A program made the position numbers and the translations under genes. Below, one piece after another: positions 17,011 to 36,439 of a stretch of 41,041 nt of DNA; the stretch's first letter is position 1, and each line of letters starts with the position of its first letter. Under the pieces are notes generated by a model, which did no database searches, had not been told where the DNA came from, and saw nothing but the letters and a program-made list of their open reading frames with translations. Source of the DNA: Sarcina sp. DSM 11001 (GTDB lineage: Bacteria; Bacillota; Clostridia; Lachnospirales; Lachnospiraceae); the NCBI RefSeq assembly GCF_900101015.1, contig NZ_FNFZ01000032.1:1-41041 (forward strand). Reading direction: 5' to 3'.

Positions 17011-17910
17011 CTATTCAGTCTCTTTCTTTACGGAATCTTCTTCCAGCTGCTGGCCAGGCTCTTTGGCCGTCTGGTCTCCGGACTGTTCTTCCGACTGCGG
17101 GCCAGGCTCTTTGGCCGTCTGGTCTCCGGACTGTTCTTCCGACTGCGGGCCAGGCTCTTTGGCCGGCTGGTCTCCGGACTGTTCTTCCGGCTGGTCTCCA
17201 GACTTTTTATCCGGGTGTTGTTCCGGTTCTTTATCCTTCTTGTTTACAGGTTCTGGATCCGGCTGTTTTCCGGACTGTGCGATCCGGTTCTGGATCTCGG
17301 CGAGCTCCTTTTCACGGATGCTTTCTTCAATGGCTTCATCCTCGATCGCGTCGCTGAACCTAGAGGAAAGAATATTGAGGATAGCTCCGCAGGCGGCAAA
17401 GCAGATCATGCAGAGACGGCCCAAAGTACTTCCAAACAGGATCATAAGCTGTCCCAGGATCGGGATATGGCGGACCACGATACCAATCAGATTAGCGTAA
17501 GGCACTTCATTCATGTCTTCTGACGGGTTCGCGTCTCCCTTGGTCGTAAAAGTACCTTCAACGATCTTATTGTCGACAACGCGGTGCATAACAATACTCT
17601 CGCCGCTCTGGAAGGCTATGATATCTCCCTTTTTGATACTTGAAGGTTCTGCTTCTTTAACATAGATGATACTGCCGACCGGAACCGTTGGTTCCATGGA
17701 TCCACTGACAACATCATAGATCTGATAGCCCATATACTGCGGTACCGTCAGCGGCAGAGCCGCCGCGATGACGGTCAGGAGCATGAGCGTTCCGACCAGA
17801 CTGCAAAAAGCAGGCATATAAACCAACAAACCGCGCCGTCTTTTTGGCGCGGAATATTCGTTACTGCCCGCTGCCCTTTTTTTATTGTTTTTTGCTTTCT
17901 TTTTTGCCAT
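17011..17910 (-). CDS. sipW: SipW-type (Ser-His) signal peptidase I with repeat-bearing tail
   Basis: A 299-residue membrane protease of the ER/SipW subfamily. The first helix is about residues 28-58, the catalytic Ser is in SGSMEPT (Ser71), the general base is His109 (MHRV) instead of the bacterial Lys, and GDAN carries Asp126. A second hydrophobic span covers 150-182. A ~110-residue polar tail follows, including three 16-residue units EEQSGDQTAKEPGPQS (48-bp DNA repeats). In Bacillus this enzyme processes TasA and TapA; here the genes just upstream encode proteins with the matching leader type, so they are the expected substrates. A strong terminator at 17954-17985 separates it from them, so it may have its own promoter or depend on read-through. 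Confidence 0.92.
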   Translation of the reverse strand: MAKKKAKNNKKRAAGSNEYSAPKRRRGLLVYMPAFCSLVGTLMLLTVIAAALPLTVPQYMGYQIYDVVSGSMEPTVPVGSIIYVKEAEPSSIKKGDIIAFQSGESIVMHRVVDNKIVEGTFTTKGDANPSEDMNEVPYANLIGIVVRHIPILGQLMILFGSTLGRLCMICFAACGAILNILSSRFSDAIEDEAIEESIREKELAEIQNRIAQSGKQPDPEPVNKKDKEPEQHPDKKSGDQPEEQSGDQPAKEPGPQSEEQSGDQTAKEPGPQSEEQSGDQTAKEPGQQLEEDSVKKETE

Positions 17911-17953
17911 GCCAGCTTCCCCATGCTGTCAGATAAAAGGCAGCAGCTTCGAT

Positions 17954-17985
17954 AAAAACCCCCGCAGACCGCGTGGCTGCGGGGG
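17954..17985 (-). terminator. strong intrinsic terminator between mucin-like gene and sipW
   Basis: On the minus strand CCCCCGCAG pairs with CTGCGGGGG and is followed by five T. It closes the packed operon running from about 23.3 kb. Confidence 0.9.
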
Positions 17986-18029
17986 TCTCGATTCATATCT
18001 GCAGGTCAGGATCTCCCTCCTGCTCCGCC

Positions 18030-19589
18030 TCAATAATCATCATCGTCGTCATCGTCATCGTCATCATCATCGTCGTCATCGTCATCATCGGCGAAACGTC
18101 TAAAGAAGAACCATCCGCCGCCTGCCAGCAGGAGGACGACAATAATGCCAGCCGCTACCTTCATAGGTGTAGACATGCCGTGGGCACGTACAACTCCTTC
18201 TGTCTCAGTATTCACGACAGTTGTTGTAGTCGTTGTCTCTGTATTGGCTGTCGGAGCTGTATTTGCCTGTGCCAGAGATGTCTGCGGGTTGGTATCGAGA
18301 TCCAGCGTCTCCTGAGGCTGGGAGTTCTGCGTCTGCGGCTGCACACTTCCATTCAGATTGGAAGTTCCTGTGCCGTTGGCTGTATTGCTGCCGGACCCGG
18401 TACCTGCTGTTCCATTTGCTGCTGTTGTCCCTGTGGTTCCAGGGGTAGTTCCGGTCGTTCCGGAAGTAGATCCTGTGGTTCCGGGAGTTGTACCGGTCGT
18501 TCCGGTGGTAGTTCCGTTTGCCCCGGGAGTTGTCCCGGTCGTTCCGGTGGTAGTTCCGTTTGTCCCGGGAGTTGTACCGGTCGTTCCGGTGGTTCCGGAC
18601 TGGTTACCTGTGGTACCTGCAGTCCCGGTCGATCCCTGAGTCCCGCCGGACGTAGTCGTAGTCGTGTTATTGGTTGTGTTGTTCGTCGTGCTGCTGGTCG
18701 TATTATTGGAGGACGTACTTGTTGTACGGTTCGCCGCCACCGCAGCCCTTGTCGTGGTCGTCGTACGCGTTGTTGTACGGGTAGTTGTTCTTCTGGTGGT
18801 AGTGGTCGTACGCCTTGTTGTAGTTGTAGTTCTTCTGGTGGTGGTCGTCGTTGTACTACGGCTCATCGCCCTGACAGTAGTACGGGTAGTCGTCGTACTG
18901 CTTTTCGTAGAGGTTTTGGACGTAGTTCCAGCTTTCGTTGTGGTCTTTGTAGATTTGACAGGCTCAAGCTTGTTGTACTTAAAGGTCCAGGAATTGTCCG
19001 ATTCCTTTGATCCCAGTGTTGCTGTTATATTGTAGTACTGCGGTGTGTAACCTTCTACGTACAGGAAAGCTGTGACCGGCTTGTCTCCGACGTTGCCGTA
19101 GTAAGTCTCTTCTTTATGAAGAGTCTTTCCGCTGGCAGCATCCACATACTGCACTTTGTAAGCGACCTGATTATTTTTAATGCCGTAAGCTACGACAAGA
19201 TCAGTATCCCGGTCGACGATAAAGCTGCCATAATACGGTTTGATTTCCTTACTTCCACTGACCGTATTATTGTCTCTGCCGCTCTCTCTCAGGCCTTTAA
19301 TATAATACTTTTTATACTGATCGCCGTCCTTAACCTTAATATTCTTCTGCCAGTCATAGGACCAGCGGGTCCCGGGCTTGATCCCTGTCTCTACATATAC
19401 ACTGCTGCCGTCTGTAAATTCCCCTATATTTCCGGTAAAGATCCTTACCGTATAGGTATAGGTATCACTGGCAAAAGCAGGCAGCGCAAGCGCAGCGATC
19501 ATGCACAGAGCTATGAATATGGCTGCCGCTTTGACAAATAATGACCTGCGCCCTTTTCCGGAGGTTATCGAGGCAATATTTCTCTTCAT
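18030..19589 (-). CDS. mucin-like Thr-rich membrane-anchored surface protein with poly-Asp tail
   Basis: A 519-residue protein. A signal peptide (hydrophobic core AAIFIALCMIAALALPAFA, about 20-40) is followed by a compact domain (about 42-215) containing a MucBP-like part: YKVQYVDAASGKTL, GNVGDKPVT, GYTPQYYNI. Next comes a ~200-residue Thr/Arg stalk of TTTTRR-type repeats, and then TTGTTPGTNG-type repeats. A single membrane span (MKVAAGIIVVLLLAGGGWFFF, about 475-495) leads into RRFA, 18 consecutive Asp and a final Tyr. The Asp codons mix GAT and GAC, so this is not one simple triplet expansion. No LPXTG motif is present; it is a membrane anchor with an acidic cytosolic end. The ATG has GGAGG and overlaps the previous stop by four bases. 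Long frames on the other strand here are artefacts of the repeats. Confidence 0.82.
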   Translation of the reverse strand: MKRNIASITSGKGRRSLFVKAAAIFIALCMIAALALPAFASDTYTYTVRIFTGNIGEFTDGSSVYVETGIKPGTRWSYDWQKNIKVKDGDQYKKYYIKGLRESGRDNNTVSGSKEIKPYYGSFIVDRDTDLVVAYGIKNNQVAYKVQYVDAASGKTLHKEETYYGNVGDKPVTAFLYVEGYTPQYYNITATLGSKESDNSWTFKYNKLEPVKSTKTTTKAGTTSKTSTKSSTTTTRTTVRAMSRSTTTTTTRRTTTTTRRTTTTTRRTTTRTTTRTTTTTRAAVAANRTTSTSSNNTTSSTTNNTTNNTTTTTSGGTQGSTGTAGTTGNQSGTTGTTGTTPGTNGTTTGTTGTTPGANGTTTGTTGTTPGTTGSTSGTTGTTPGTTGTTAANGTAGTGSGSNTANGTGTSNLNGSVQPQTQNSQPQETLDLDTNPQTSLAQANTAPTANTETTTTTTVVNTETEGVVRAHGMSTPMKVAAGIIVVLLLAGGGWFFFRRFADDDDDDDDDDDDDDDDDDY

Positions 19590-20473
19590 GCCTGGCCTCC
19601 TTTCTGTTTACGTCTCTCCTTCAGGCTGTAAAATGCCAGAAGCAGGAAGACCAGTCCGCTGACACCTGCGGCGATGATATACGGGATAGTATCCGTGTAA
19701 TCACCGGTTTTAACGATCTCACGATGTGTAGTAGAGGTGTGCGTAGTATGTTTGGACGAAGAAGAGGATGAGTCCTTGGTCGTTGTTCTTGTCGTTGTCG
19801 TCGACGTCGCTGTTGTCGTTCTCGTTGTCGTTGTCGTCGTCGTAGTTGTGTCAGGCTCATCGTAAGCAGGTCTGAGTTCAACCGCGAACTGCATCTGAAG
19901 CTGTGCCAGGGTATCCTGATAATCATTGCCCTGTGTCTCGCCTTCGAGCGCGACCCTGAGGGTCAGGGTACCGCCCTCACCTTTTTTGAAGGTGTCAAGA
20001 TAGAACCAGTCCTGAAGGGCTCCGGTCGCCTGATGAAGGCCTACACCGGATTTGCTCTCACCCTCGCCGCCGACTCTGTCACTGGAAAACAGGACCGTTT
20101 CCTTCCCTGTCGATGTGTTTTTGAAGGTCAGGATGTAGGAATAGGCGCCTCCCTGCAGACCGGTGTCTTCAGCCCTGGTATCCTCAAGAGATTTCAGTAC
20201 CTTGTTGGTCATGTACCAGTCAACGGTCTCGTCATAATCATTTTTCAGATTGAGCACGATGTCAGTATAATCGCCCGGCTGCAGACCGTAGACCTGGTCG
20301 TCCATTTCCTTTGTCTTGAAATCACTGACCATTACTTTCTTTTCTGTAAAAGAAACACTCCAGCTTTTTTCTGTGGGGATCAGCTCTGCAAAGGCTGTCA
20401 CGGATAAGGCACAAATCAGAACCGCTGCAAGGAGAGCCGGAGAAACAAGTTTTTTCATGATCTTTTTCATCAT
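19586..20473 (-). CDS. surface protein with Thr/Ser stalk and KTGD-type sorting signal
   Basis: A 295-residue precursor. A signal peptide (SPALLAAVLICALSVTAFAE, cut near 29) is followed by a ~170-residue beta-rich domain with the pattern GLQPGDYTDIVLNLKNDYDETVDWYM, similar to the ectodomains of TasA-type fibre proteins. A short Thr/Ser/Lys/His stalk (about 205-245) follows, then VKTGD, a hydrophobic span and a basic end (KERRKQK). KTGD takes the place of LPXTG, so it may be a substrate of the sortase encoded upstream. It overlaps the next gene by ATGA and follows the preceding one by 17 bases, within a tight operon. The start has GGAGGGGGAAGAA. Confidence 0.8.
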   Translation of the reverse strand: MMKKIMKKLVSPALLAAVLICALSVTAFAELIPTEKSWSVSFTEKKVMVSDFKTKEMDDQVYGLQPGDYTDIVLNLKNDYDETVDWYMTNKVLKSLEDTRAEDTGLQGGAYSYILTFKNTSTGKETVLFSSDRVGGEGESKSGVGLHQATGALQDWFYLDTFKKGEGGTLTLRVALEGETQGNDYQDTLAQLQMQFAVELRPAYDEPDTTTTTTTTTRTTTATSTTTTRTTTKDSSSSSSKHTTHTSTTHREIVKTGDYTDTIPYIIAAGVSGLVFLLLAFYSLKERRKQKGGQA

Positions 20474-20490
20474 TTCTTCCCCCTCCTTTC

Positions 20491-21384
20491 TCAGTCAGCC
20501 AGCGTGATCATGCCTTTGTTATCGACATTCACATCACGCCCCCAGACGCTCTTGATCGCGTCTTTGGCATTGTGGTTCTGGACCGCGTCCACAACCGCTT
20601 CGAGGCAGAACTGCCATCCGTCATAGTCATATTTTGTCGTGATGGTCTTTCCATCATCGGACACTGTCTTCGTGACCTTGTCCCCGACCATCCTGTCGAT
20701 CGTCAGCTTGTCACTGAGCGGTGTCTTGGATGTGTCCTCGCCGGGAGCCAGAACACTGTTGTAATAGACAACGATTCGTTCTTCTGTAGATGCTTTTTCA
20801 TCCAGCAGCCATACATTGCTGTTGGTCAGATTAAGCTTGATCAGCGCCGGGGAAAGACCCTGAGTGGAAATGCCCTTCTTATCCTTCTCTTTGACGATCT
20901 CATTGCCTTCATCATCCGTCTCATTCAGGAAAACCTTGTTTCCATCGGGATCCACCCAGTATTTGTAGATCGTCACGCGGACATATTCTTCGATATTGCC
21001 GGTATTCGCAACGCTCAGTTCCTCTGTATAAGCCTTGCCGGGTTTGAATTCGGTATCACTGCCAAGAAATAACGAGTTGTCTGTTTTTTTAGTTTCTAGA
21101 TCTGCACCTGCTAATAGCTGTAGAGATTCTTCATCCCATTTATCAGCAGTGTTTTCTAAATGGTCTCGATGTGCGACAGCTCTTGGTTTCTCATCGCCGG
21201 CGCACTTCTCCTGAAGTGTCACTCCGATACAGTGCATCTGCATCTGCCCGGAATAAATCTCGGAAATTGCCTGGAAGGCTGCCCGAATGCCGCCGATGGT
21301 TGAAACCAGCAGAAGCACAGAAGCCAAAATAAACAAGGCTATGGTCACTGCAGGGGAGGTAATCAGCTTCTTAAGGTTCTTCAT
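20491..21384 (-). CDS. TasA/CalY-like fibre-subunit candidate
   Basis: A 297-residue protein with an N-terminal hydrophobic leader (about 12-30). The sequence after it, STIGGIRAAFQAISEIYSGQMQMHCIGVTLQEK, resembles the N-termini of Clostridial TasA-like or SipW-processed proteins. The rest is a beta-rich domain (FKPGKAYTEELSVANTGNIEEYVRVTIYKYW) with no stalk, sorting signal or second membrane span. An insert at about 58-95 (Lys/Asp/Glu/His-rich) looks less conserved. The start ATG has AGGAGGTGA and shares one base with the stop of the previous gene (TGATG). It sits between a SipW-leader protein and an anchored protein and upstream of a SipW peptidase, so a fibre subunit is the best inference. 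Confidence 0.68.
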   Translation of the reverse strand: MKNLKKLITSPAVTIALFILASVLLLVSTIGGIRAAFQAISEIYSGQMQMHCIGVTLQEKCAGDEKPRAVAHRDHLENTADKWDEESLQLLAGADLETKKTDNSLFLGSDTEFKPGKAYTEELSVANTGNIEEYVRVTIYKYWVDPDGNKVFLNETDDEGNEIVKEKDKKGISTQGLSPALIKLNLTNSNVWLLDEKASTEERIVVYYNSVLAPGEDTSKTPLSDKLTIDRMVGDKVTKTVSDDGKTITTKYDYDGWQFCLEAVVDAVQNHNAKDAIKSVWGRDVNVDNKGMITLAD

Positions 21385-22022
21385 CAGTTCTCACCTCCTG
21401 CGCCTTCTGTATTTTCAGCGGCATCCTCATCGGAGCCCGATGTCTCAGTAGCTGTTGTGCCGCTCCCGGTCCTATAGGTCTGAAGCTTGCGGTTCCAGTC
21501 TGCTTTTTCAGGAGGAATCAAGTTGCCGCTCTCATCGTACTGGATTTCTACGGTTTCATAAACAATGATCACGTTAAAGGAATCCGCATCCTGTATGCCG
21601 GAGTTTTCTCCGCTGGGGACATCCTTGATCTGGACCTTCAGGGGATCCGCTGTCTCTCCGGGCGGAAGGACATCCTGATAATAGACCCAGTCGTCGCCCT
21701 CGGGCTGCGCCCACTTTTCGCATTCATAGGTAATCTCATAATCAGGGCAGAAGCCTCTGGCCCGGATATATACCGGCCTTGAATCCTTAGGGTTCGCAGT
21801 ACTCTTGATATTGATTACTTTCTGCCAGCTGTTGAAATCCTCTTCGACCTTTTCTTCATGTCCCATATGTAATGTATAACCGCCTTTGGCGGATGCATAA
21901 GTACTGAAATAAGCCCACGCGGTTCCCATCAGGGCACTCATGACCAGCATAACGGCAGCTGCCGTCAGAAGGCCTGTGCGGAGGGCTTCCCATTTTCTCT
22001 TTTTTTCCATATGTTTATCCAT
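21384..22022 (-). CDS. SipW-dependent-type signal peptide protein (TasA-like)
   Basis: A 212-residue protein. The leader LLTAAAVMLVMSALMGTAWAYFSTYASAKGGYTLHMG (about 17-53) has the AYF.....A.G pattern of SipW-dependent signal peptides. The mature part (about 38-180) has a beta-sandwich-like pattern with GFCPDYEITYECEKW and DVLPPGETADPLKVQI. The C-terminal ~35 residues are Thr/Ser/Gly/Glu-rich and presumably exposed. No sorting signal is seen. The ATG at 22022 has GGGAGGG at suitable distance; a second ATG four codons later is less well placed. It lies 18 bases after the pilin-like gene and is coupled to the next gene. Confidence 0.78.
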   Translation of the reverse strand: MDKHMEKKRKWEALRTGLLTAAAVMLVMSALMGTAWAYFSTYASAKGGYTLHMGHEEKVEEDFNSWQKVINIKSTANPKDSRPVYIRARGFCPDYEITYECEKWAQPEGDDWVYYQDVLPPGETADPLKVQIKDVPSGENSGIQDADSFNVIIVYETVEIQYDESGNLIPPEKADWNRKLQTYRTGSGTTATETSGSDEDAAENTEGAGGEN

Positions 22023-22040
22023 ATGTCACTGCCCTCCCGG

Positions 22041-23327
22041 TTAATCTTCCTTATTAGTTGTGGCGTCCGACTGGATCACAGTGCCGTTCTGACTGCTGTC
22101 GGTCATCTGCTCCCAGCCCCATTTCGACTGTCCGGCTTTGTAAGTAAACTTGTTGGTGACGCTGCCGCCGCCGCCATGGGTATCATCATATTCATCTTCG
22201 AACGGTATGGTTACGGTCTCATTGGCCAGGATCGTCTCTGTCCTGACCGTATCATCTATTGTATAGGCCTGTCCCGCATAGACCTCTTTGACTACCGCAT
22301 AGCTGTAGGCGGGAAGGTTCTCGATCAGGACTGACTTTTTGCCATAAGCGTCAAAGACGACTGAAACATTATTGTGATAGATCCGGTTTTCTCCCGGCTT
22401 TGCGGGATCATATTCCTCTTCACTGGAATAGACCGAAACATCGAAGACGACTGTTGCCGGATCCTTGATCAGCCTGGTCTTTCCATCCGTGGTCTTCTCA
22501 CGCTGCGCGTAATCCAGAAGGTCTTTCTCAATCTTGAGATTTCCCAGTCTGGGGGACTGTGAAGGCTTCAGCATGGCAGCTGCGTCATAATACCAGCCTT
22601 CTCTGTCCGCCGTATTGGACGGCTGTGTACTGTCCATTGTCCTGGCGGGAATGGAAATCAGCTCCGGAGAAAACTTGAAGAGATAATGTCTGGAGTGGGC
22701 GATCGTAGCCGTGCCCCCGACAGCCGCCGCAGTCTCCGCAGTGCTGCCGGTCGAACCTGCAGCGGGAGCCGCGCTGGTATCTGTCGTAGCGTATTCTGCG
22801 ATGTCCGATCCGTGGGCAAGGATCAGGTAGAGACCGGGCTCAAGAGGTTCGATCTTTGTGTCCGGGAGCTGTCCCATCTTCTTAATCTCATCCGGAATAG
22901 CATTTATACTGTCCGAAGGATCCCACTCTGTCTTGCCCTCGGGAGCTTCTCCGAGCACGATATTTGCTGCCTTATTGGCCAGTTCTCTCCAGCCGGCATT
23001 ATCAATATTCTTGTCGATCGTGATGCCCCGGTAAGCAAAAGGCTCATTCACCTGCCAGTCATAGGTATCAAATCCCTGGACTGGAATTGCATCCGCGACG
23101 CGGTACAGGTCAATCTCCACATTTGCATCCGGAAGTTCCTCGAGCATCATGCTGCCCGCGCTGATGGTGAGGCTGCAGTCACGGTCCAGGTCAATCGATG
23201 ACGCGAAGACCTTTTCCCCGAACAACGACAGGGAGAAGACCATGAACACTGCCGCCAGTATGAATGCTGCAGGCCGCCATCTGCCGCCTGCAGTCCGGCC
23301 CCGCCGGACGCTGTTTCTTTCCTTCAT
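22041..23327 (-). CDS. pilin-like surface protein with isopeptide-type domain, no sorting signal
   Basis: A 428-residue precursor with a basic N-terminus and membrane segment (about 19-40, AAFILAAVFMVFSLSLF, cut near VFASS). The N-terminal domain (43-200) has VEIDLYRVADA and LEPGLYLILAHG, as in the first domain of Gram-positive backbone pilins. The second domain (about 268-400) begins LKIEKDL and has FDVSVYS, LPAYSYAVVKEVY and SVTNKFTY, the layout of streptococcal-type isopeptide linker domains with a Lys near the start and an Asn or Glu near the end. It ends without LPXTG or a membrane span, which is unusual for a sortase-linked pilin. It may be joined through an internal Lys or by TasA-like polymerisation. 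The start has GAGGAGGGATTATATCC. Confidence 0.78.
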   Translation of the reverse strand: MKERNSVRRGRTAGGRWRPAAFILAAVFMVFSLSLFGEKVFASSIDLDRDCSLTISAGSMMLEELPDANVEIDLYRVADAIPVQGFDTYDWQVNEPFAYRGITIDKNIDNAGWRELANKAANIVLGEAPEGKTEWDPSDSINAIPDEIKKMGQLPDTKIEPLEPGLYLILAHGSDIAEYATTDTSAAPAAGSTGSTAETAAAVGGTATIAHSRHYLFKFSPELISIPARTMDSTQPSNTADREGWYYDAAAMLKPSQSPRLGNLKIEKDLLDYAQREKTTDGKTRLIKDPATVVFDVSVYSSEEEYDPAKPGENRIYHNNVSVVFDAYGKKSVLIENLPAYSYAVVKEVYAGQAYTIDDTVRTETILANETVTIPFEDEYDDTHGGGGSVTNKFTYKAGQSKWGWEQMTDSSQNGTVIQSDATTNKED

Positions 23328-23375
23328 GGATATAATCCCTCCTCTGTCGACTGCGTTTTTGTTTTCCGTATAATT

Positions 23376-23398
23376 ATTATAGTAATTTTATTAGAGAA
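23376..23398 (-). promoter_or_regulatory. possible promoter of the second fibre operon
   Basis: An A/T-rich stretch with a TATAAT (23376-23381) and a weak TTATTT about 15 bases upstream lies 50 bases before the start at 23327. The -35 box is poor, so this is tentative. Confidence 0.4.
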
Positions 23399-23531
23399 AT
23401 AACATTAAATATAGTAATTATAACCGGGTTTAAAGTTTCTGTCTGTATTTTTCATCGATCCTGTGCCTAATCCAGCCGGATCCATTTTAATGTCCACACC
23501 CTGTACCGGTATAAAAACCGCCGCCAGGATC

Positions 23532-26434: not shown

Positions 26435-28099
26435 TTACTGTACATCCATACGGCGGCGGGTAATGAGGACAACGCCTGCACCGACTACAAGGATTCCACC
26501 AATAATGTAGAAGATTGTTGTGCCTATACCGCCGGTGGAAGGAAGGACAGAACCAACTCTGTCCTTAGCTGTCACTGAAATTGTCAGCTTACTTGTGTCT
26601 GTAACTTTCTCGGTCTGAGCTTTGATAGTAAAATCTTCATTATCAGCAAGATTATATCCCTTAGGAGCTGTAACCTCAACCAGTGTATATGTTCCAGGTT
26701 CAAGGCCCTTGAACTGGATCTGCTGATACTCTGTGCCCTCATTAGTTCCATCCGTGCTGGTCCAATAGGTTGTTGCGTCATCAAGAGAATCAACCCATGT
26801 TACAGCATATTTAGTCTCTGCACTTCCGCCTTCGCCGGCCTCAGTTCCTTCTCCGGGTTCGGTTCCTTCTCCGGGTTCGGTTCCTTCTCCGGGTTCAGTT
26901 CCTTCTCCGGTCTGAGCTCCGCTGCCACTCGTAGTCTCAGTGAGCTTATAATACTTACCATCTTCATTCTTTACTGCAAACTGTGCGCCAGGAAGTTTTT
27001 TCGTCGTGCTATCGGCATCTACCTTTTCAACCTCAACAATGTGGTTATAAACTTCAGTTTCATCGTCGTCAACATTGGTATCGTCGTTATACTTGATCGT
27101 AGCTTTGTTAGTTGCCTTGGTAACTGCTGTCAGTTTTGCTGTATAGGTAACCGTGACTTTTGTTGGATTCTTATAGGTTGCAGGAGTAACGGTCGTTACT
27201 GCATCATTTCCTTCACCAGTGGTTGTTTTACTTCCCCATGGAATTGTAACGGTCAATTTACCGTTGGTAACATTCTTTGTTATAGTGGCGGAAAGTGTCT
27301 GATCCTGATCGAGTGCAACTGCTACAGTACTAACATCAATATCAAATCCACTCGGGGCGTCTTCTACAACGTAGTTATATATGATAGTCTGCTCCCCTTC
27401 GTCATCGACCGCATAATTAGTAGCATAAAACTCAACTTGGAAGGGTACATCCGTACCAGGCTCAAGGTCTGCGACATCAACTTTTTTTCCATCGATTACA
27501 ATTTTCTTTGCATCGTCATCTGTAGAAGGTCCATCTTCAATTTTACTGTTTACAGTTGCATTCGGATGAGCAGTGTCCACAGTGACACCTGTTTTTTCAC
27601 CAAGTGATGAAGAAATGAAATAGTAACCTGCAGAACGTACATTTAACGTAATAGAATCTGAGCCATCACCGGTTTTCTCATCAACTTTTTCACAGACGAG
27701 TTTTATGTCTTCTTCATGATCTTTAAGCCATTTAATAATAGCTGCATCTGTCACAGACGCGCTGGCTCTCTCAACATATACGGTATTTGATCCTGACCAT
27801 GTTCCTCCTGACAGCGTTCCCGCTTCAACTATCTTAAAAACAGTGTTGAAGTCTCCAATTATTGTAACTTCATGGTCGGGAATAAGAGAATAGTTTACCT
27901 TACTGGGATCAGCAGCATCGTATGTCACATTAAATACTTTATATGCCTCATACTTCGCATCTTTAATCGCACCATTCATAGTGATTTTGAAACTGTCAGA
28001 TTCGCCACCCGTTTCTCCATTAGCAAACACCGTCATTCCCATACTCAGCACCATGGCCAAGGCGATCAGCAGGGCAAGAAACTTTTTCATTTTTTTCAT
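26435..28099 (-). CDS. LPSTG-anchored backbone pilin (SpaA/FctA-type isopeptide pilin)
   Basis: A 554-residue precursor with signal peptide (MKKMKKFLALLIALAMVLSMGMTVFA, cut near 26). The first domain has AYKVFNVTY and GYYFISSSLG. A second (about 205-350) ends TYTAKLTAVTKATNKATIKYNDD. A SpaA/Cna-B domain follows (from VEVEKVDADSTTKKLPGAQFAVKNEDGKYY to YTLVEVTAPKGYN), where Lys and Glu can form the stabilising isopeptide bond. The signal LPSTGG, a hydrophobic span and RRRMDVQ end it. Inside the SpaA domain is a tandem hexapeptide, GEGTEP four times (18-bp DNA units). The size and layout fit the major shaft subunit polymerised by the downstream class C sortase. The start has AAAGGAAAACGATC. Confidence 0.93.
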   Translation of the reverse strand: MKKMKKFLALLIALAMVLSMGMTVFANGETGGESDSFKITMNGAIKDAKYEAYKVFNVTYDAADPSKVNYSLIPDHEVTIIGDFNTVFKIVEAGTLSGGTWSGSNTVYVERASASVTDAAIIKWLKDHEEDIKLVCEKVDEKTGDGSDSITLNVRSAGYYFISSSLGEKTGVTVDTAHPNATVNSKIEDGPSTDDDAKKIVIDGKKVDVADLEPGTDVPFQVEFYATNYAVDDEGEQTIIYNYVVEDAPSGFDIDVSTVAVALDQDQTLSATITKNVTNGKLTVTIPWGSKTTTGEGNDAVTTVTPATYKNPTKVTVTYTAKLTAVTKATNKATIKYNDDTNVDDDETEVYNHIVEVEKVDADSTTKKLPGAQFAVKNEDGKYYKLTETTSGSGAQTGEGTEPGEGTEPGEGTEPGEGTEAGEGGSAETKYAVTWVDSLDDATTYWTSTDGTNEGTEYQQIQFKGLEPGTYTLVEVTAPKGYNLADNEDFTIKAQTEKVTDTSKLTISVTAKDRVGSVLPSTGGIGTTIFYIIGGILVVGAGVVLITRRRMDVQ

Positions 28100-28232
28100 G
28101 ATCGTTTTCCTTTCTTTTTAGTCCCTTCAGGAGCAATGTCCTGTATTTTCCGCCCCCAAAGGGCAGTGTTTCCGTTGAATTATGAACGTCAATTCATACG
28201 TCTGTCCGAAAACAGTGTTTTGTTGGTCTTTT

Positions 28233-28280
28233 GGCTGTACTTTCTGTGGCTCTCTCGACAGTGCGTTCATCTGTACAGCC
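28233..28280 (-). promoter_or_regulatory. inverted repeat in the leader of the backbone pilin gene
   Basis: GGCTGTAC and GTACAGCC form a perfect 8-bp stem around about 32 bases, roughly 130 bases before the pilin start. A smaller palindrome (TGAATTGACGTTCA) lies closer to the gene. It does not match a riboswitch that I know. A processing site or stability hairpin separating tip and shaft mRNA is possible. Confidence 0.4.
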
Positions 28281-28349
28281 TCAAATCCCGTTTATGCGTC
28301 TATCACATCTTCAGATTCGGCGTCTGTTATTCGTCGAGATCAGAGGCTT

Positions 28350-31300
28350 TTATCTTACCCTCCTTTCCCGTCGCCTCATCCTGAAGATGTACATCAAAGC
28401 GGCTGCCATAAGAAGGGTGATTCCGCTTAATGTATAAATGAATGTTCCGGAGCCGCCGGTGTACGGGAGCGTTTCTCCCGGGGTATTTGGAATAACCAGT
28501 GTATCTTTGTTTGTACCTTCGGTGCGGGCTCCAATAGTATCTGAGTCAAATGCCGTCTGGCCAGTTGTCGTTGTTATGACATCTCCGGTTCCATCAGCAT
28601 TAACCGTGAAGTAAATATCTCTGGTCTGAATAATATAGCCATTCGGAGGTTTTATTTCTGTGAGCTTATAATCACCTGAGGGGAGGCCCTCAATTTTCAG
28701 AGTTCCATCCGTCAGTGTAAGGGTCGCTTCTTCTTTCGTAGCGTCGATCTGCTCATCAGAAGCATAAACCCCTTCGCTATTTTTACGATAAAGCTTAAAG
28801 ATGGCACCTGTCAGAGGTTCCGTACCTCCTTTGGCAACCTTTTTGAGATTTATATCTGCCGCCTTTCTTGTGTTGGTCACCGTCATGGCATTGCCGTCAG
28901 ATACACTTGAGATAGTATTGCCTGTCTGTACCTCACCGCTTGTTGTCAGCTTGTAACTATAAGTGACTGTATAATTATTGTTTACCGTTTCGTCAATACT
29001 CAAAGTCACGCCGGCAGGGAGTCTTATCGAAGCTGTTTCGTCCTTTTTCAGGGATATTTTCAGTTGATCCGGATGTCCATCTACAGCCAATATGTGAGGA
29101 TCTGACTGAGAAGGCAGTTTTGCAACAGCCGTTCCGTTTTTCGTTACCGCAGCAAGAATCTCAAACGTTGACCCATCATCATAACCTGAAACGTTTTTCG
29201 TTACCGAAACATTAACGGCATCGTAGCGGTTTGTATAGGTCATAGTATACACAGAGTTCGTTTCGGCAATTGTTCCGCTGATCTTACGTCCGTCCACAGT
29301 TCCTGTATCTTCTGTGTGTGTAATAACTGTTCCCTGCTCACCCGCATCAGAACCTTCTTCTCCTTGTTCTCCTCCTTCCTCGACTGCTTTATATTCATAA
29401 TATTCTCTTTCTCCTGAAACGTTTACAAAGCTGAAGCATTCCTCCGGCATTGTAGAGGATTCCTCCACTTCGTAGGATGTACCTTTCGGGAGGTTCATAA
29501 ACCTCAGGTTCCAGCTTTTTTTCAGTTTGAAAAAGATTGTTGTTTTGTTTGGAGCGTAATAAAAACCTGTGGGTTGATCGTTCTTAATTTCCGGCAGCAC
29601 ATTTGTCCCTCTGATATACTGGAGATCATCCGTGTTTATCACATAGTTGCCACTCTCATCCAGAATAGAAAACCACACATCTTCGTCATTTTTATCATCT
29701 ACCTTAATCGTGAAATCAAACAGAGCATCTTCCGGTGTGTTATTTCCTTCAACTGCTTTTGTGACATTCAATGAACTTCGGCGCTCGTTTGTTGCTGTAA
29801 GAGAAGCAAGCGCGTCATCTACCTTATAGTACTTATCTGTTCCCAGATAATTCATTTTATAGTAAGTTTCATCACCGGAGATATACTTTGCCGGTGAATC
29901 CAAAGACTTCATTGCATCCGGAATAGCCTCTCCAGTCACCTCCACAAGCATAGTATCCACACCATCAATCTTCATTGGATGGACTGTAGGAACGTCAAGC
30001 TCCCAATAATATGCCAGATCAGTCGGTTCAGCGAAGGAGAAATCATGCCCGGGTGCCTTAATGGATACGATATCATTGTGTGTTGTCATAATGCCGATCG
30101 ATATGAAGGCTTTGTTGTTCCATTCATTGCCGTCATTAAGTTCAATCTCATAGTGGTTTTCAGCATCCCTGGTAACTTCCAGCTCGATTGGTTCTCTGCT
30201 TCGATCATCCAGCTGATTCTCCCATTCTTTTGCGATCGCCATCTCTTCCACGGCGCTGGTTTTGACCGGGTCGGGATTATCATAGGGTTTTGTCTGAGAA
30301 TCATTTCCTGTCCGGGTGTCTGTGTAAGTCAGGCTGGCTTCCGTATTTGTACTAAGGATATACTCATTTGCTTCATTCTCATCTTTGATTAGATACTTAC
30401 GAATGTTCTCATCAAGAGCATTGTATGCGGCATCGGGATCTTCCGCATTTTTTAGATCCGCAATCGTATCAAGCGTAAACTGGCTCGGATAGCAGTCAAA
30501 GGTTACTGTATAGGTGACACCATCAAGCAGAGTACCAAGGCTGTTCAAATCCCAGTCCACTGCACTACTCGTCACTTCTTGTCCGTCAATGGTCGAAGTA
30601 GTCGTATTGTGGGTTGCTGGAGGAGGCGCAAACCTATAAAAGTCTGTCGCACTTGTCCACTCCAGAGTAAGCTTGTTTCCTGCTTCTACCTTCCCCGGAT
30701 AGGAAGCACTTCCTCCAGGCCAGGTAATCGTGACAGTACCATCGGACTCAGCAGCCGTATACGTTACATTCTCTCCGGATATCTTGTCCGGCATGATAAA
30801 TGAATAGGTATTTCCAGTTCCAGCCGTTACAGGTAAAGTGAGCCAATACTGATAGGAATCCTCAACAACAAGCAAATTAGCAACATCGCCGGAAGTTGTT
30901 TGAACAGCACTGGTAGTACCATCACTTATTGAAACAGCAGTAACGCCCAAAGTATTGACGATTTTCTGGAAAATTTCATTGATGGCCTGAGTTAATGCGG
31001 TAGTATCACTTGCCTTGTAATAACCTTCGGTTTCAAAGCTTGTTCCTGCGTTAGCCGGATCCAGGCTGTTGTATGCGTAATACATCAAAGCCGACAGCCA
31101 GTCATCATCATTCGCAAAAGCGAAAACACCGTATAACGCTCCGCCCTTTTCATGGCACTTATTTTGAATTCGTTGGGCTATAACTTTGGATGTATTGTAG
31201 TTCGGACGTGCTGCAGATTCATTCTGAGTCTGTGGACGTCCGTCCGTGATGAACACAACATAAGTGGGATCATCATCTGCACTGTCAACCAAATCTTCAG

Positions 31301-34300
31301 CAGCGTCTAATGCAGAGGTCCAGTTTGTATAATTGTGGTAATTCAGTTTATGGCTTGTCCCCGAACTGTCAACCCTATTCAAAATATCATTCTTGTTTGA
31401 AGTCCAACGACCTAAAGGGGGGTTGTTGTTGCCATTATTAGCAGACGTATCAAATGTAATAAAAGCCGCCTGAATATTCTCAGATTCTTTTTCCGGTGTA
31501 TCCGGATTTTCGGGATTCTGATAGCTGAACAGCGCATTTGTAAAATCATATACTACTTTTTCACTTGCGTCCGCGCGGTCTATGCTATAGCTGTAACGCT
31601 GATCGGTATACTTCGTGTAGGTATACCGGGGGCTGTTGCCTGTACGGCGATAAACGGTACCGGTATAGGTGTCGTCTGTCAGAGCAGTGTAACTGTTGGT
31701 CCCATTACTTCTGTATAACTGGAAATAAACACCGTCTGAATAGGAGGTCGCATTGCTGCCGCTTGAGTCTATGCCCCGCCCGCCATATTGCATGGGAACA
31801 TAGTTATTACGCTGATCATCCCATGTTCCATAAGGAGTTAACCCAGGAGCCTCCATCGATGTCGATGTATCATAAATGATGATTACATTTGCATTTGAAG
31901 CAACGTTGTTCTCGGTATCGGCATCACCTGTGACATTTAAACCTATTGTATAGGTTCCATCCTTATTATCTATCAAAGATTTGCTGTGCGCAGGTATATC
32001 GCCGGCATTTCTTAAAACACCCCCACCTGTTTTTGCTCTGACAGCCTTTGTTGCATTGACTATATCTGCTGCAGTATGAATTCCTGCTGACGGATTATAA
32101 TTTTTTTCACCAGCTTCATAGCTGTCATAATCATACATGTATACGAGGTCATATTCTGAGAACCCGTCAACATCGTATATAGTCTCAGTAAAGCCCTCTT
32201 TTCCAGAGGTATTTTCCGAATCGATCAGGTCAGCCCCATCATCAGTATAATGTATTGCAACAAATCTATTCTCTTTTTCCTTCGGAACGACTTTTTCCCC
32301 TGTAATTGCATGATACCCATAGTCTACGGTGTCTTCTGTGCAAAGCGGTTCAACATATTCAATCCTGACCTGAACAGGAGCTTTGGGCTCGAACTCTTTC
32401 CCTTCAACCAGAATACTGATGTTAAGGAAACGGGCATCGCTCAAAGTTACATTGCCGTAATTCTTGCTCAGCACATCAGCAAGGCGCACGGAACGTTCGA
32501 ACCAGTCCTCATCACCTTCCTGGATCTCTTTCACCTCAAGGGTTGCGCCTTTAGGGATCTGCGCGCTCTCGTCATAATTGACAGTAACCTTTAATGTCTT
32601 TCCATCTGCAGTGAGTAACGAGGTCGTGATCGTCTCGACCACGCCGTAAACAGAGAATCCATCTGCGTCAAAGCTGACCGCGTTCTTCAGTTCTTCCGCA
32701 GCTACCAACTTCGAATCCAGAAAAACAGCCTTGCCGGTGTTCTCTGTTTCATTCCCTGCATCTTTCTGATGCTCAAAATGCACGGCTTTGACGTCTTTGG
32801 TCAATTCGTCCGCCAGTTCAATCCTGACGTTCACAGGTTCTTTCGGCTGGATCCTGTCACCCCCACTTACAATACTGATGTCAAAGAACCTTGCAAAAGA
32901 GACCTTCTCGTCTTCGGCCAGAACTTCTTCTGTACCAGTAACATACTTTTTGAACTCTTCGGATTCACCGGAGATCTCCTTTACCTCCAGTTCAGCTCCC
33001 TGAGGAATGTCGGCTTCAGGTCCGTATGTCACAGTGATCTTATAGTTGTGCCCGTCAGAAGCAAGAACTGTTTTTTCGATCACCTCAGTCCCGATGACGC
33101 CATAAACCGAGAAGTTCTCCGCTTCGAAGGAGATCTCCTGGATCGCTTTCTTTTTGACTTCGGTCTTTGTGTCGAGGATCTCGGGGACTGCGATTTCCGG
33201 GATGGCGATTTCAACCGGATCGTTGTCCTTTTTCTCTGCTTTTTCCGTATTATCCGCTTTGACCGTATCCTCAAAGTGGACAGCCATGGTGTCGGCAGTG
33301 TCGGCTGCGGAAAGGGCATCCTTATATTTGACGGCGATGCTCACGGAAGCCGCGGGCTCGACAGTATTACCGTCCTTGTCCAGGAAGGTGATGTCGAAGA
33401 AGCGGGCGCTCTTGACGGCCTGATCGTTTTCCAGGCGGCTTTCTTTTTCAAGAGCTTCGAGGGTCTTCTCGTAGTATTCCTCGTAATCCGCGTAGAGAGG
33501 GTTCCCGTTCTCGTCCTTGTACACCTTGTTCGGGAGGATCTCCACGGCAGAGAGGGTCACTTCCGCCGGGAGTTTCGCCTTCTCATCGAAGGTCGCGGTA
33601 ATGGTGTAGTCCTTTCCTTCATAAATGATGGTGGCGGGATAAGTGACTGCGGCGGCAGCCTGGTCGCCGGTCGCGCCGAGGGCGGTCAGGTCTGTTGCTC
33701 CGACAGCTGCTCCGCCGGCGGCGAATTCTACTGCTGTCTCCGCGGTGCTGCCTTCAATGACAGCTTCACCGCTGTTTTCTGCGGTGCCGGCAGAAGCGGT
33801 GCTCCCTTTGCCGGACTTATCTCCGGAGGCAGAAATACCTGCGGAGGCATTCTGTGTATTATTGCCGAGAGCATCCCCGGAGTTTTTCTCAGTAGAATCA
33901 GTAGAATCAACAGATGCATCCGGGGTGCCTTCGAGACCTTCTCCGTCCACAGTCTCCGGGTCCTGTCCGTCCGCATCAGGAGCTGAACCGGAATCCTCCA
34001 GTCCATTCTCCCCGTCTTCACCCTCTTCAAGACCTGTTCCGTCAAAACCTGTTCCGTCAAGACCTGTTCCGTCCGCGGCATCGGGCACTTCAGGATCGGC
34101 TTCGCCGTTCTCCGTGCCGGAGGTGTCTGTTCCGGTTACGCCTTCACCCGCTTCCGAAGAACTTCCGTCAGCGATCTCATCTCCGGAAGCCCCGGTATTA
34201 TCCGCAGCGTCGGTGCCGATTTCATTTTCATCCGTCCAGGTGCCGGAACCATCAGGACCCGAATAATCGTCCCCTGTGTTCTCCACACCGGGCACGATTT

Positions 34301-34724
34301 CACTTGCATTATTCCAGGTATCTCCTGTGGCAGGATCCTCGGGCTGAATCCAGTCATCCGCAGAGCCGGTCTCTTCAGAGGAATAGTCCTCCACATAGCC
34401 GTCTCCCGCAGAATCAGCATTGTCCTCGTAATAGCCCCCGTCCTCCGGGAATCCCGCATCGAAGGAGTCCTCTCCAGCCGTGTCTACGGCAAGAGAATCG
34501 TCTTCCATGAAGTCAATGCCTTTACGCTGATCCTTCGCGACGCCCACTTCGACGCCGGGGGATTGGACCGCGCGCTGCCTGTCCATGGTAATTGCGGGCA
34601 GGATGAGCTCATAGGTGGTCGCGAAAACCACGACCGCCGCGAGGAAAGCGAAGATCCTGCGGTAGCGGGCCAGACGTTTATGCTTTTTGAAAAATTCCTC
34701 TGCCAGGCGGATGATAAAATCCAT
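28350..34724 (-). CDS. giant VWA- and SpaA-domain pilus-tip adhesin, LPYTG-anchored
   Basis: About 2,124 residues. A basic start and membrane segment (about 20-45) end in TTYELILPAITMDRQ, a leader type common in Lachnospiraceae adhesins. A Glu/Asp/Gly/Ser-rich low-complexity region (about 55-355) includes DGTGLDGTGFDGTGLEEG from 15-bp DNA repeats. Three homologous modules follow (about 361-548, 549-694, 695-868), each closing with a FSVYGV-like or FSEYDL block. The VWA domain (about 940-1250) has the metal-site motif DTSTS near 950 and VVFITDGRPQTQN. Several Cna-B/isopeptide-type domains come next, then a SpaA domain (about 1955-2075, INLKKVAKGGTEPLTGAIFKLYRK...LTEIKPPNGY), LPYTGG and a membrane anchor. 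The start at 34724 (AGGAGAAATAAC before the ATG) replaces a longer, non-coding frame. By position and domain set it is the tip subunit. Confidence 0.92.
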   Translation of the reverse strand: MDFIIRLAEEFFKKHKRLARYRRIFAFLAAVVVFATTYELILPAITMDRQRAVQSPGVEVGVAKDQRKGIDFMEDDSLAVDTAGEDSFDAGFPEDGGYYEDNADSAGDGYVEDYSSEETGSADDWIQPEDPATGDTWNNASEIVPGVENTGDDYSGPDGSGTWTDENEIGTDAADNTGASGDEIADGSSSEAGEGVTGTDTSGTENGEADPEVPDAADGTGLDGTGFDGTGLEEGEDGENGLEDSGSAPDADGQDPETVDGEGLEGTPDASVDSTDSTEKNSGDALGNNTQNASAGISASGDKSGKGSTASAGTAENSGEAVIEGSTAETAVEFAAGGAAVGATDLTALGATGDQAAAAVTYPATIIYEGKDYTITATFDEKAKLPAEVTLSAVEILPNKVYKDENGNPLYADYEEYYEKTLEALEKESRLENDQAVKSARFFDITFLDKDGNTVEPAASVSIAVKYKDALSAADTADTMAVHFEDTVKADNTEKAEKKDNDPVEIAIPEIAVPEILDTKTEVKKKAIQEISFEAENFSVYGVIGTEVIEKTVLASDGHNYKITVTYGPEADIPQGAELEVKEISGESEEFKKYVTGTEEVLAEDEKVSFARFFDISIVSGGDRIQPKEPVNVRIELADELTKDVKAVHFEHQKDAGNETENTGKAVFLDSKLVAAEELKNAVSFDADGFSVYGVVETITTSLLTADGKTLKVTVNYDESAQIPKGATLEVKEIQEGDEDWFERSVRLADVLSKNYGNVTLSDARFLNISILVEGKEFEPKAPVQVRIEYVEPLCTEDTVDYGYHAITGEKVVPKEKENRFVAIHYTDDGADLIDSENTSGKEGFTETIYDVDGFSEYDLVYMYDYDSYEAGEKNYNPSAGIHTAADIVNATKAVRAKTGGGVLRNAGDIPAHSKSLIDNKDGTYTIGLNVTGDADTENNVASNANVIIIYDTSTSMEAPGLTPYGTWDDQRNNYVPMQYGGRGIDSSGSNATSYSDGVYFQLYRSNGTNSYTALTDDTYTGTVYRRTGNSPRYTYTKYTDQRYSYSIDRADASEKVVYDFTNALFSYQNPENPDTPEKESENIQAAFITFDTSANNGNNNPPLGRWTSNKNDILNRVDSSGTSHKLNYHNYTNWTSALDAAEDLVDSADDDPTYVVFITDGRPQTQNESAARPNYNTSKVIAQRIQNKCHEKGGALYGVFAFANDDDWLSALMYYAYNSLDPANAGTSFETEGYYKASDTTALTQAINEIFQKIVNTLGVTAVSISDGTTSAVQTTSGDVANLLVVEDSYQYWLTLPVTAGTGNTYSFIMPDKISGENVTYTAAESDGTVTITWPGGSASYPGKVEAGNKLTLEWTSATDFYRFAPPPATHNTTTSTIDGQEVTSSAVDWDLNSLGTLLDGVTYTVTFDCYPSQFTLDTIADLKNAEDPDAAYNALDENIRKYLIKDENEANEYILSTNTEASLTYTDTRTGNDSQTKPYDNPDPVKTSAVEEMAIAKEWENQLDDRSREPIELEVTRDAENHYEIELNDGNEWNNKAFISIGIMTTHNDIVSIKAPGHDFSFAEPTDLAYYWELDVPTVHPMKIDGVDTMLVEVTGEAIPDAMKSLDSPAKYISGDETYYKMNYLGTDKYYKVDDALASLTATNERRSSLNVTKAVEGNNTPEDALFDFTIKVDDKNDEDVWFSILDESGNYVINTDDLQYIRGTNVLPEIKNDQPTGFYYAPNKTTIFFKLKKSWNLRFMNLPKGTSYEVEESSTMPEECFSFVNVSGEREYYEYKAVEEGGEQGEEGSDAGEQGTVITHTEDTGTVDGRKISGTIAETNSVYTMTYTNRYDAVNVSVTKNVSGYDDGSTFEILAAVTKNGTAVAKLPSQSDPHILAVDGHPDQLKISLKKDETASIRLPAGVTLSIDETVNNNYTVTYSYKLTTSGEVQTGNTISSVSDGNAMTVTNTRKAADINLKKVAKGGTEPLTGAIFKLYRKNSEGVYASDEQIDATKEEATLTLTDGTLKIEGLPSGDYKLTEIKPPNGYIIQTRDIYFTVNADGTGDVITTTTGQTAFDSDTIGARTEGTNKDTLVIPNTPGETLPYTGGSGTFIYTLSGITLLMAAALMYIFRMRRRERRVR

Positions 34725-34863
34725 GTTATTTCTCCTATAGACACGGTTTTGAATGTCTAAAAACGATATTCCGTACCTGCTTTGATAGAAGCAGTGCTCC
34801 GTTGTATCTTTTGTCAGTTTCCGGTTTGTCAGTTTCTGTCTGACCGGACCGTACCGACGATGC

Positions 34864-35940
34864 TTAATTGACGAATCCGATCTTGCTAAATGGCCACACC
34901 CTGAAGACGATGTGTCCGACGACCTGTTCCTGATCAACACAGCCGACGGCGGTGTTGCGCGAGTCGATAGAGACCTCACGGTTGTCCCCCATCACAAAAA
35001 CCTTGCCCTCCGGCACCTGGTAGGGGAGCTCGATATCGGTCTCGCCATAGGCCTTGGGCTCATGAAGGTAGGGCTCCTCGATACGCTTCTGGTTGACATA
35101 GACGTTTCCGTCCTGGTCGATGTCGACCCATTCGCCGCTGTTGGCGATCACGCGCTTGACCAGTATGTTGTTGTTGTAGTAAAAAGCGATGACCTCTCCC
35201 GTGCCCATCGAGCTGTTCTTGAGGGAGAGGACGATATCCCCGTTGTCCAGGGTTCCGTTCATGGACTGCCCGTAGATATGCAGGACGGGCAGGAACAGAA
35301 TCGCCACCAGGACCGCCATGGCCGCGACCGTGATCAGTCCAAACACCGTGCTGCGCATGGTCGTGAAAAAGCGGTTGCGGTATTTTTCCTTTTTCAGTTC
35401 ATTTTCCAGCAGCTCGCTGGAAGGAAGCTCCATTTCCGGGGAGGGCCCTGCGTTATCCCCTGCGTTTTTCAGCAGGACATCCCCATCCTTTCCCCCTGCG
35501 GCTTTCTGCAGGATATCCCCGCTCTTTTCGCCCGCTGCTTTAGGCGGGACATTCTTGTTTTTTCTGTCTGCGCCTTTTGACAGGGATCTCCTGATCTTTT
35601 TTCGCGCAGCTTTCCAGGGCGTATTCTTTTTCTTTTTTCCTGCGGGTTTCACTGGCGCGGCTTCCGCATCATTATCCGCGGCGCTCTGCAGGGCGTCTTC
35701 CTTATTGTCGACATGATCACCTGCGGATTCCGACAGCATATCTTCCTTATTATCGACATGACTGCCTGCAGATTCCGGCAGGGCATCTTCCTTATTATCG
35801 GCATGATCACCTGCGGATTCCGGCAGCAAGTCTTCAATAATATCGCCTGGGGACTCCTGCGCGGTATCGGAAAGGGTTTTGTCCGCGATGTTCTCCGCAG
35901 GCATCTGCCCCTCTCCCATTTTCCAATTTTTATCTGCCAA
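34864..35940 (-). CDS. lepB: type I signal peptidase with long repeat-bearing cytosolic extension
   Basis: A 358-residue protein starting at a TTG codon with GAGGAAGATCGAT before it. The catalytic part (about 195-358) is standard: one membrane helix (200-222), nucleophile Ser226 (IYGQSMNGTL), Lys262 (ILVKRVIA) and the conserved VFVMGDNREVSIDSRN. The first ~190 residues are an unusual acidic/basic cytosolic extension with three ~15-residue units of the type LPESAGDHADNKEDA (45-bp DNA repeats) and a Lys/Gly/Ala-rich stretch. It lies directly upstream of the giant adhesin, so it probably handles pilus precursors. It uses Ser-Lys, unlike the SipW-type enzyme at 17011. The start overlaps by 11 bases the in-frame end of the upstream coiled-coil reading frame. 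Confidence 0.93.
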   Translation of the reverse strand: MADKNWKMGEGQMPAENIADKTLSDTAQESPGDIIEDLLPESAGDHADNKEDALPESAGSHVDNKEDMLSESAGDHVDNKEDALQSAADNDAEAAPVKPAGKKKKNTPWKAARKKIRRSLSKGADRKNKNVPPKAAGEKSGDILQKAAGGKDGDVLLKNAGDNAGPSPEMELPSSELLENELKKEKYRNRFFTTMRSTVFGLITVAAMAVLVAILFLPVLHIYGQSMNGTLDNGDIVLSLKNSSMGTGEVIAFYYNNNILVKRVIANSGEWVDIDQDGNVYVNQKRIEEPYLHEPKAYGETDIELPYQVPEGKVFVMGDNREVSIDSRNTAVGCVDQEQVVGHIVFRVWPFSKIGFVN

Positions 35941-36157
35941 ATCGATCTTCCTCGAAAATTATGTCTATTATGTCTTCTGTGATCTCAACTATTATGTCTT
36001 CTGATATTTCAACATTCTCCGGGATCCCGGTCTGCTTTTTAAGCAGTCTCCCGGGACTGGTTTTAACATTATCCCAGGGACTGGTTTTGACATTATCCCA
36101 GGGACTGGTTTTGACATTATCCCGGGACTGATTATAAATAATCTCCTGAGACTGGTT
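35930..36157 (-). pseudogene. in-frame severed tail of the coiled-coil protein (octapeptide repeats)
   Basis: After the TAA at 36158 the same frame stays open for 75 codons to a TAA at 35930. It continues the octapeptide series begun before the stop: KNQSQDND, KNQPQERI, stop-NQSQEII, YNQSRDNV, KTSPWDNV twice, KTSPGRL (24-bp DNA units, three nearly identical at 36060-36122). It ends in an acidic segment (PENVEISEDIIVEITED and onward). The stop stands where other units have Lys AAA, so one A-to-T change explains it. The tail overlaps the lepB start by 11 bases, as expected for an original operon junction. Confidence 0.75.
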
Positions 36158-36439
36158 TTAAATACGCTCCTGAGGCTGGTTTTTATCATTATCCTGAGAT
36201 TGGTTTTTGACATTTTCCAGATACTGGTCGGCTGCGGCCTGGGCAGCTTCAAATATACCGTTCAGCCTGAGCGCCGCTTCCGCGATCGACCCGGACTCCT
36301 GAATGCGGATCTCTCTGTCGGCAAGCTTTTCTTCCAGTTCACGGACTTTTGCGCGCAGGGTATCGATCTCACGGCTCTGGGCGAGCATCATCTCCAGCAG
36401 TTCTCCTCGTTTCAGCTTATGTAATTCTTTTTCTGTCAT
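36158..36439 (-). CDS. coiled-coil protein at the head of the pilus operon
   Basis: A 93-residue acidic/basic helical protein: MTEKELHKLKRGELLEMMLAQ is followed by heptad-rich IDTLRAKVRELEEKLADREI (about 25-45) and a conserved block SIAEAALRLNGIFEAAQAAADQYLENV. I recall similar proteins near pilus or signal peptidase genes in Lachnospiraceae, but have no function for them. There is no signal peptide, so it is cytosolic. It may be a scaffold for the peptidase or other membrane components. The C-terminal NQSQDNDKNQPQERI is the start of an octapeptide series interrupted by the stop codon. The start has GGGAGAGATAGCAG and a promoter lies 57 bases upstream. Confidence 0.75.
   Translation of the reverse strand: MTEKELHKLKRGELLEMMLAQSREIDTLRAKVRELEEKLADREIRIQESGSIAEAALRLNGIFEAAQAAADQYLENVKNQSQDNDKNQPQERI

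Follow-up and report, generated by a model that had tools for sequence, protein, structure and literature searches.

This analysis concerns a gene block on a contig of Sarcina sp. DSM 11001 (Lachnospiraceae; NZ_FNFZ01000032.1), the whole of which, 41,041 nucleotides long, is referred to here as the window. In this block the genes of a sortase-assembled pilus stand beside those of a SipW-type signal peptidase and of BsaA-like secreted proteins. We propose that the second part of the block, encoding a class C sortase (C2), a pilin-like protein (PLP), a BsaB-like and a BsaA-like protein (BsaB and BsaA), a wall-anchored protein with a VKTGD signal (the KTGD protein), a mucin-like protein and SipW, could be the base on which sortase pili are assembled and anchored, a role that we regard as on balance probable. 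Comparison with related loci shows a conserved operon, the kinship of PLP with base pilins, an invariant lysine, a missing wall-sorting signal, pilus shafts encoded in trans in four genomes, and a domain swap; the docking of the pilus on the SipW-exported proteins is what we infer.

According to this proposal, C2 (and C1, the sortase of the adjoining tip-shaft unit) would use the LPxTG signals of tip and shaft subunits to join them, and PLP would finally receive the growing chain on K254, a lysine of its first domain, presumably through an isopeptide bond. The second domain of PLP, with its C-terminal V-x-N-x-F tail, would dock on BsaB/BsaA, and the KTGD protein (by its wall signal) and the mucin-like protein (by its membrane segment) might tie the complex to the envelope. 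BsaA could form either a short base or a long fiber. As PLP has no wall-sorting signal, no sortase linkage of PLP to peptidoglycan is expected, and as it is a signal-less homologue of base pilins, a base or anchor seems a better description of the TasA-type proteins than a co-polymerized shaft. The initial annotation had suggested a fiber using both polymerization logics; this is no longer the best supported view, given that PLP is related to base pilins and has no LPxTG-like signal.

Sortase pili are taught as covalent structures from tip to peptidoglycan. A pilus with a noncovalent foot would connect two Gram-positive fiber systems that are normally treated apart, and it would offer a possible role for the many unnamed proteins linked to SipW in Lachnospiraceae of the gut and rumen. 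The cluster type is open to study in culturable commensals such as Blautia parvula, strain NBRC 113351 of which carries it (L115).

Conservation and content of the SipW module

A search for BsaA in 150 genomes of the family found it in 17, with E below 1e-20 in its own genome and nine others. A collection of 84,980 species was also scanned with BsaA, and the best 80 of 255 relatives were kept; together with 12 loci from the family genomes and the window, and minus three repeats (L030/L057, L034/L128 and L035/L059), these make up 90 distinct loci, in all of which BsaA is present by construction. BsaB precedes BsaA in every locus. A PLP-type gene precedes BsaB in 88, a count that includes two adhesin fusions (L031 and L127) and two partial frames (L037 and L124; in L037, PLP shares one open frame with the preceding protein and was not counted as a fusion), and the other two loci are cut at this point by a contig end. 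The KTGD protein follows BsaA in all 90, with a signal of TGD type in 78, of TGE/TSD/TSE type in 7 and none in 5. A separate mucin-like protein is encoded in 85 loci; in the remaining five (L056, L068, L101, L106 and L111) it is fused to the KTGD protein, and the fusions lack a KTGD signal and have a membrane segment at the C-terminus. SipW lies at most six genes away in 81 loci, a class C sortase stands directly before PLP in 76, the six-gene core from this sortase to the mucin-like gene is unbroken in 70, and tip or shaft genes are found upstream in 69. Median intergenic gaps from sortase to SipW are -8 to 23 bases, taking longest-frame starts. In the window, BsaB and BsaA overlap by 1 base (at 21384) and the KTGD and mucin-like genes by 4 bases (19586-19589), exactly as initially described. 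That the second module forms one machine, as proposed from this close packing, is thus well supported by gene order, and we consider it to be a strongly conserved machine.

The products of the module can be placed with varying firmness. BsaA (20491 to 21384, minus strand, as are all genes of the block) is a candidate TasA/BsaA-type subunit, and BsaB (21384 to 22022) carries a SipW-type signal, AYFSTYA. Neither reaches the 60-bit cut-off of the BsaA family model TIGR04090 (31.9 bits for BsaA and 13.4 for BsaB). Across relatives, this model matches 48 of 55 members of the BsaA alignment at E<=0.01 (best 9.3e-10) and 10 of 12 aligned BsaB members at E<=0.1. In profile comparison BsaB matches the BsaA alignment with a probability score of 98.4; the KTGD protein (19586 to 20473; alignment A4) matches it more weakly, at 83.5, and shows a weakly BsaA-like pattern. 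The predicted model of BsaA is a beta-sandwich (predicted local distance difference test score, pLDDT, 87.2) with no clear solved neighbor. A fold search with this model placed the TasA fiber (8aur) at rank 27 with E 0.054; as TasA was not singled out, a TasA fold is not claimed, and kinship between BsaA and TasA is plausible. Profile searches of the PDB with the BsaA, BsaB, PLP and KTGD alignments returned no relevant solved relative.

SipW itself (17011 to 17910) scores 89.4 bits on TIGR02228 (cut-off 51.85) and falls below the Bacillus SipW equivalog NF046067 (80.7 against 190 bits); a Ser-His active site can be read in its translation from SGSMEP and MHRVV. The mucin-like protein (18030 to 19589) is rich in threonine and has a C-terminal membrane segment followed by a poly-Asp tail, a run of about 18 aspartates at its end.

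The pilin-like protein and its C-terminal tail

For the analysis of PLP (22041 to 23327), 85 of 92 sequences were kept after removal of repeats, of copies truncated at the end of a contig and of those not within 280 to 560 residues. PLP has a pilin fold of the base/shaft family and occupies the slot of an ordinary base pilin. It carries the motif W-x8-K, which we take to be the pilin motif, with the lysine (K254 in the window) present in 85 of 85 and the tryptophan in 83 of 85. An LPxTG-like motif is found in the last 60 residues of none of the 85; by comparison, in 13 of 20 ordinary class C loci from the family the base-pilin slot holds a sorting-signal protein. Such comparison shows PLP to be a homologue of the ordinary base pilin that is without a wall-sorting signal. 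A base-pilin profile search in 20 genomes missed PLP itself in several (G150 and the full G013 locus are examples), and a lack of ordinary base pilins in those genomes therefore does not follow from it.

The division of labor between the two domains of PLP is suggested mainly by a domain swap. Two loci, L031 and L127, have no sortase, and the gene before BsaB there encodes a tip-like adhesin. This adhesin, 1586 or 1607 residues long, has short N-terminal matches to tips, lacks a sorting signal and ends in the second domain of PLP. The PLP model matches these adhesins from position 222 or 223, and the pilin lysine is position 217, so that the lysine domain is absent. A second cluster, complete and with a sortase, is present in both genomes (G013; G160, L170). 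From the swap it may follow that the first PLP domain serves in joining the pilus and the second in docking on the SipW-exported set.

The end of this second domain could be the docking element. Asparagine N392 is invariant (85 of 85 PLPs). It had been considered as the isopeptide asparagine of the second domain, for which the N/D at position 378 fits better in alignment A3; N392 is now counted in the tail. Of 85 PLPs, 81 have a loose pattern, [VICL]-x-N-x-[FLMYW], within their last 60 residues. Distant loci encode large secreted proteins next to SipW/Bsa genes, and of 13 such proteins 9 show the same pattern within their last 45 residues, compared with 11 of 153 other long proteins. The pattern was defined once the data had been seen, and the 13 were picked by eye; they leave out one that is cut by a contig end in L042 and long ones at a distance of a few genes in L175, L179 and L181. 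It is conceivable, and we put this forward with more doubt than conviction, that V-x-N-x-F is a portable, signal-free docking tail shared by PLP and large SipW-linked clostridial adhesins, which would insert as a strand into BsaB and so plug covalent pili or single adhesins noncovalently into a TasA-type basal body.

Sortases and the supply of pilins

All genes of the initial annotation were recovered at the positions given there when the open reading frames and translations of the window were checked, including both sortases and both signal peptidases. In order of transcription they encode a Ser-Lys signal peptidase, the tip, the shaft, C1, C2, PLP, BsaB, BsaA, the KTGD protein, the mucin-like protein and SipW. 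A gap of 584 bases separates the frames of C1 and C2, and the block is therefore probably two transcription units split between the sortases. The first unit begins with the Ser-Lys signal peptidase I (34864 to 35940; TIGR02227 121.6 bits, cut-off 47; Peptidase_S26 8.8e-31). The tip adhesin (28350 to 34724) has about 2,120 residues and an LPYTGG signal, with matches to SpaA and DUF7601; the VWA domain noted initially is a weak match (E 0.0055, 17.8 bits against a cut-off of 27). From the list of frames its start is probably the ATG at 34724, the longest frame beginning with GTG at 34979. The shaft, or major pilin (26435 to 28099), carries an LPSTGG signal and matches SpaA and Gram_pos_anchor/LPXTG anchor models, and it stays below the cut-off of the SpaH/EbpB major pilin model NF033902 (84.2 against 95 bits). 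Both sortases exceed the cut-off of 160 of the class C model NF033745, C1 (25157 to 26092) with 275.1 and C2 (23532 to 24572, with a probable start near 24470 by reading of the frames) with 268 bits.

The initial annotation had treated pilus and SipW/TasA genes as one locus, and gene order in relatives bears this out in general. Upstream sequence of 2.5 kb or more is available for 64 sortase-PLP loci, the window among them. Tip or shaft genes adjoin the sortase in 58 of these, counting large proteins with a C-terminal membrane segment as tips, so that the two halves are not regularly unlinked; the other six are L032, L050, L052, L054, L105 and L122. In the window itself, however, the halves look separable. 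Its nearest relatives, L050 to L054, have the stretch from C2 to SipW. The gene after the module, read as methionine aminopeptidase, is the same in L051 to L054 as in the window, and a gene read as methionyl-tRNA synthetase is common to the window and L052 to L054 beyond the module. Despite 6 to 7 kb of upstream sequence each, no tip or shaft gene was seen upstream of C2 in L050, L052 and L054. In a sortase tree that used 45 of the 71 PLP-adjacent sortases, C2 falls in a clade of six rows with L050 to L054 (support 100/100), and C1 forms a long branch among ordinary sortases, away from other first-of-two sortases. Since C2 stands at the same chromosomal place without tip and shaft in the nearest relatives, and given the position of C1 in the tree, the tip-shaft-C1 unit seems to have been added separately next to a C2 module that is older. 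The idea that PLP-adjacent sortases form one clade was dropped, as the tree needs 5 changes (shuffled mean 31), which implies that sortases were swapped more than once.

A module sortase next to which no shaft is encoded may find its substrates elsewhere. In each of G081, G150, G151 and G152, a single sortase reaches class C strength, and it is located in the module (for G150 to G152, the class rests on the PF04203 score and an in-house profile). LPSTGG shafts lie elsewhere in these genomes, on retrieved stretches that encode no sortase: G081 has two tip-shaft pairs, G150 has one, and G151 and G152 each have one pair plus a lone shaft. In the genome of the window, two divergently placed LPSTGG shaft-like genes lie on another contig (L142, 7605-9728 and 9746-12130) with no sortase alongside. 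Gene content of this kind suggests that sortases of the C2 type serve pilins in trans.

Conversely, 11 loci have no sortase upstream of BsaA. Seven of these lie in six genomes with a class C sortase elsewhere (G013, G026, G075, G159, G160 and G162), L083 has a sortase downstream, and L049, L124 and L126 are cut by contig ends. Within the family, a class C sortase over the cut-off is present in 10 of 10 genomes with close BsaA and in 36 of 140 others (Fisher p 3.5e-6, a value that ignores kinship, though each genome represents a different genus), and 5 of 5 further genomes with a close-type BsaA also have one.

Two further observations concern sortases. Base pilins of the TGQ/SGQ type in L151, L154, L155, L162, L165 and L169 are followed by a small divergent sortase of about 200 to 245 residues, that of L151 reaching 49 of the 160 bits set as cut-off in the class C model; perhaps these are dedicated wall-anchoring enzymes. 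In L083, the module and a tip-shaft-sortase unit share a contig labeled Eggerthellaceae, which may reflect either cross-phylum transfer or a mis-binned contig.

Alternative readings, known systems and neighboring genes

Several observations weigh against the module being a pilus base. In Clostridium perfringens, deletion of srtB beside sipW-bsaA changed neither BsaA polymers nor pellicles, according to passages of PMC7395162. Some distant BsaA-KTGD-SipW clusters have neither PLP nor a class C sortase (none over the cut-off is present in G003, G049, G133, G015 and G008, although G031 and G044 have one each), and the SipW set can thus do something on its own. In G159, the genome of L063, an LPKTGQ base pilin adjoins the only class C sortase and the cluster with signal-less PLP lies elsewhere, which slightly lowers our confidence in the module as a base and slightly raises that in separate systems. 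Among the 20 control loci, 4 have no base pilin at all, so a lost wall signal need not be replaced. Of the two tandem PLP genes of L121 (6966-8411 and 8408-9406), the first encodes a copy with a hydrophobic C-terminal segment, a membrane segment, after a doubtful ATGM; it is the only such case among the 85. Supply in trans is seen in 4 of 7 single-sortase genomes, one stretch of G153 being without a shaft and G154 and G155 being viewed at the module only. The association of close BsaA with class C sortases leaves kinship out of account, the fold match of BsaA to TasA is weak, and its family score lies under the curated cut-off.

Part of this evidence could be accommodated by two separate systems that share an operon for regulation, a pilus ending on PLP as a chain terminator, released or held in the membrane, and an independent SipW/BsaA matrix fiber. 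Passages of PMC7395162 report that C. perfringens BsaA polymerizes alone, also in Escherichia coli, and without srtB, and the five genomes above that carry BsaA-KTGD clusters without a class C sortase over the cut-off point the same way. We nevertheless consider separate systems rather unlikely: a PLP-type gene stands directly before BsaB in nearly every locus, close-type BsaA was found in no genome lacking a class C sortase (10 of 10 and 5 of 5 genomes have one), and adhesins ending in the second PLP domain in two sortase-less loci tie this domain to the BsaB set. The hybrid fiber, in which C2 covalently joins PLP, the KTGD protein or BsaA and the same fiber also grows by TasA-type strand exchange, seems to us improbable. 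In its favor, C2 is the conserved neighbor of PLP, and the KTGD protein is the only one of the module with a sorting signal; however, BsaA, BsaB and PLP have none, KTGD proteins are also encoded in genomes where no class C sortase exceeds the cut-off, and the LPSTGG shafts elsewhere in the four genomes that lack them beside the sortase indicate that it has ordinary substrates. Chance neighborhood or a single recent fusion of two clusters agrees with the added look of the tip-shaft-C1 unit in the window and is hardly credible otherwise, as chance adjacency is ruled out for the genes from C2 to SipW by gene order across the 90 loci and by the mostly unbroken six-gene core.

A base role for the module can be set against known systems. 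Class C pili with a base pilin include the SpaB, FctB, GBS52 and EbpB types. Like these, the window encodes a tip, an LPxTG shaft, a class C sortase and a base-pilin fold with the motif lysine; unlike them, its base pilin is signal-less, and SipW-dependent proteins as well as a distinct KTGD-anchored protein are encoded after it. The sipW-bsaABC biofilm operon of C. perfringens resembles the window in combining SipW, BsaA-family proteins and an adjoining sortase gene, srtB (PMC7395162, Obana 2020); the passages of that report concerned with it name no base pilin, tip or shaft, whereas in the window the sortase belongs to class C and the two halves are linked by PLP. The Bacillus subtilis TapA-SipW-TasA system, where TapA starts TasA filaments by donating a strand (abstract of PMC10151520), and the Bacillus cereus TasA-CalY-CapP system (passages of PMC13082335) share with the window a SipW peptidase and small SipW-exported proteins. 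The latter is described there as sortase independent, unlike the window-type cluster, which is tied to class C sortases. Similarly, a signal-peptidase-family gene beside a pilus operon is known from streptococcal SipA (abstract of PMC4049620), as in the window. Literature searches of titles and abstract openings, mostly of open papers, found no description of this cluster or of a base pilin that lacks a sorting signal and goes together with SipW proteins.

Just upstream of the locus lies a gene read as a LuxR-like regulator of 870 residues (37023-39635, minus strand), for which no counterpart was seen in L050 to L054. Promoter and terminator scans gave 35 hits against 23.4 in shuffles and 29 against 19.4, and were used for no conclusion. 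On the other side of the block, two tandem and similar secreted proteins of about 240 residues each are encoded on the minus strand at 9948-10694 and 10874-11587.

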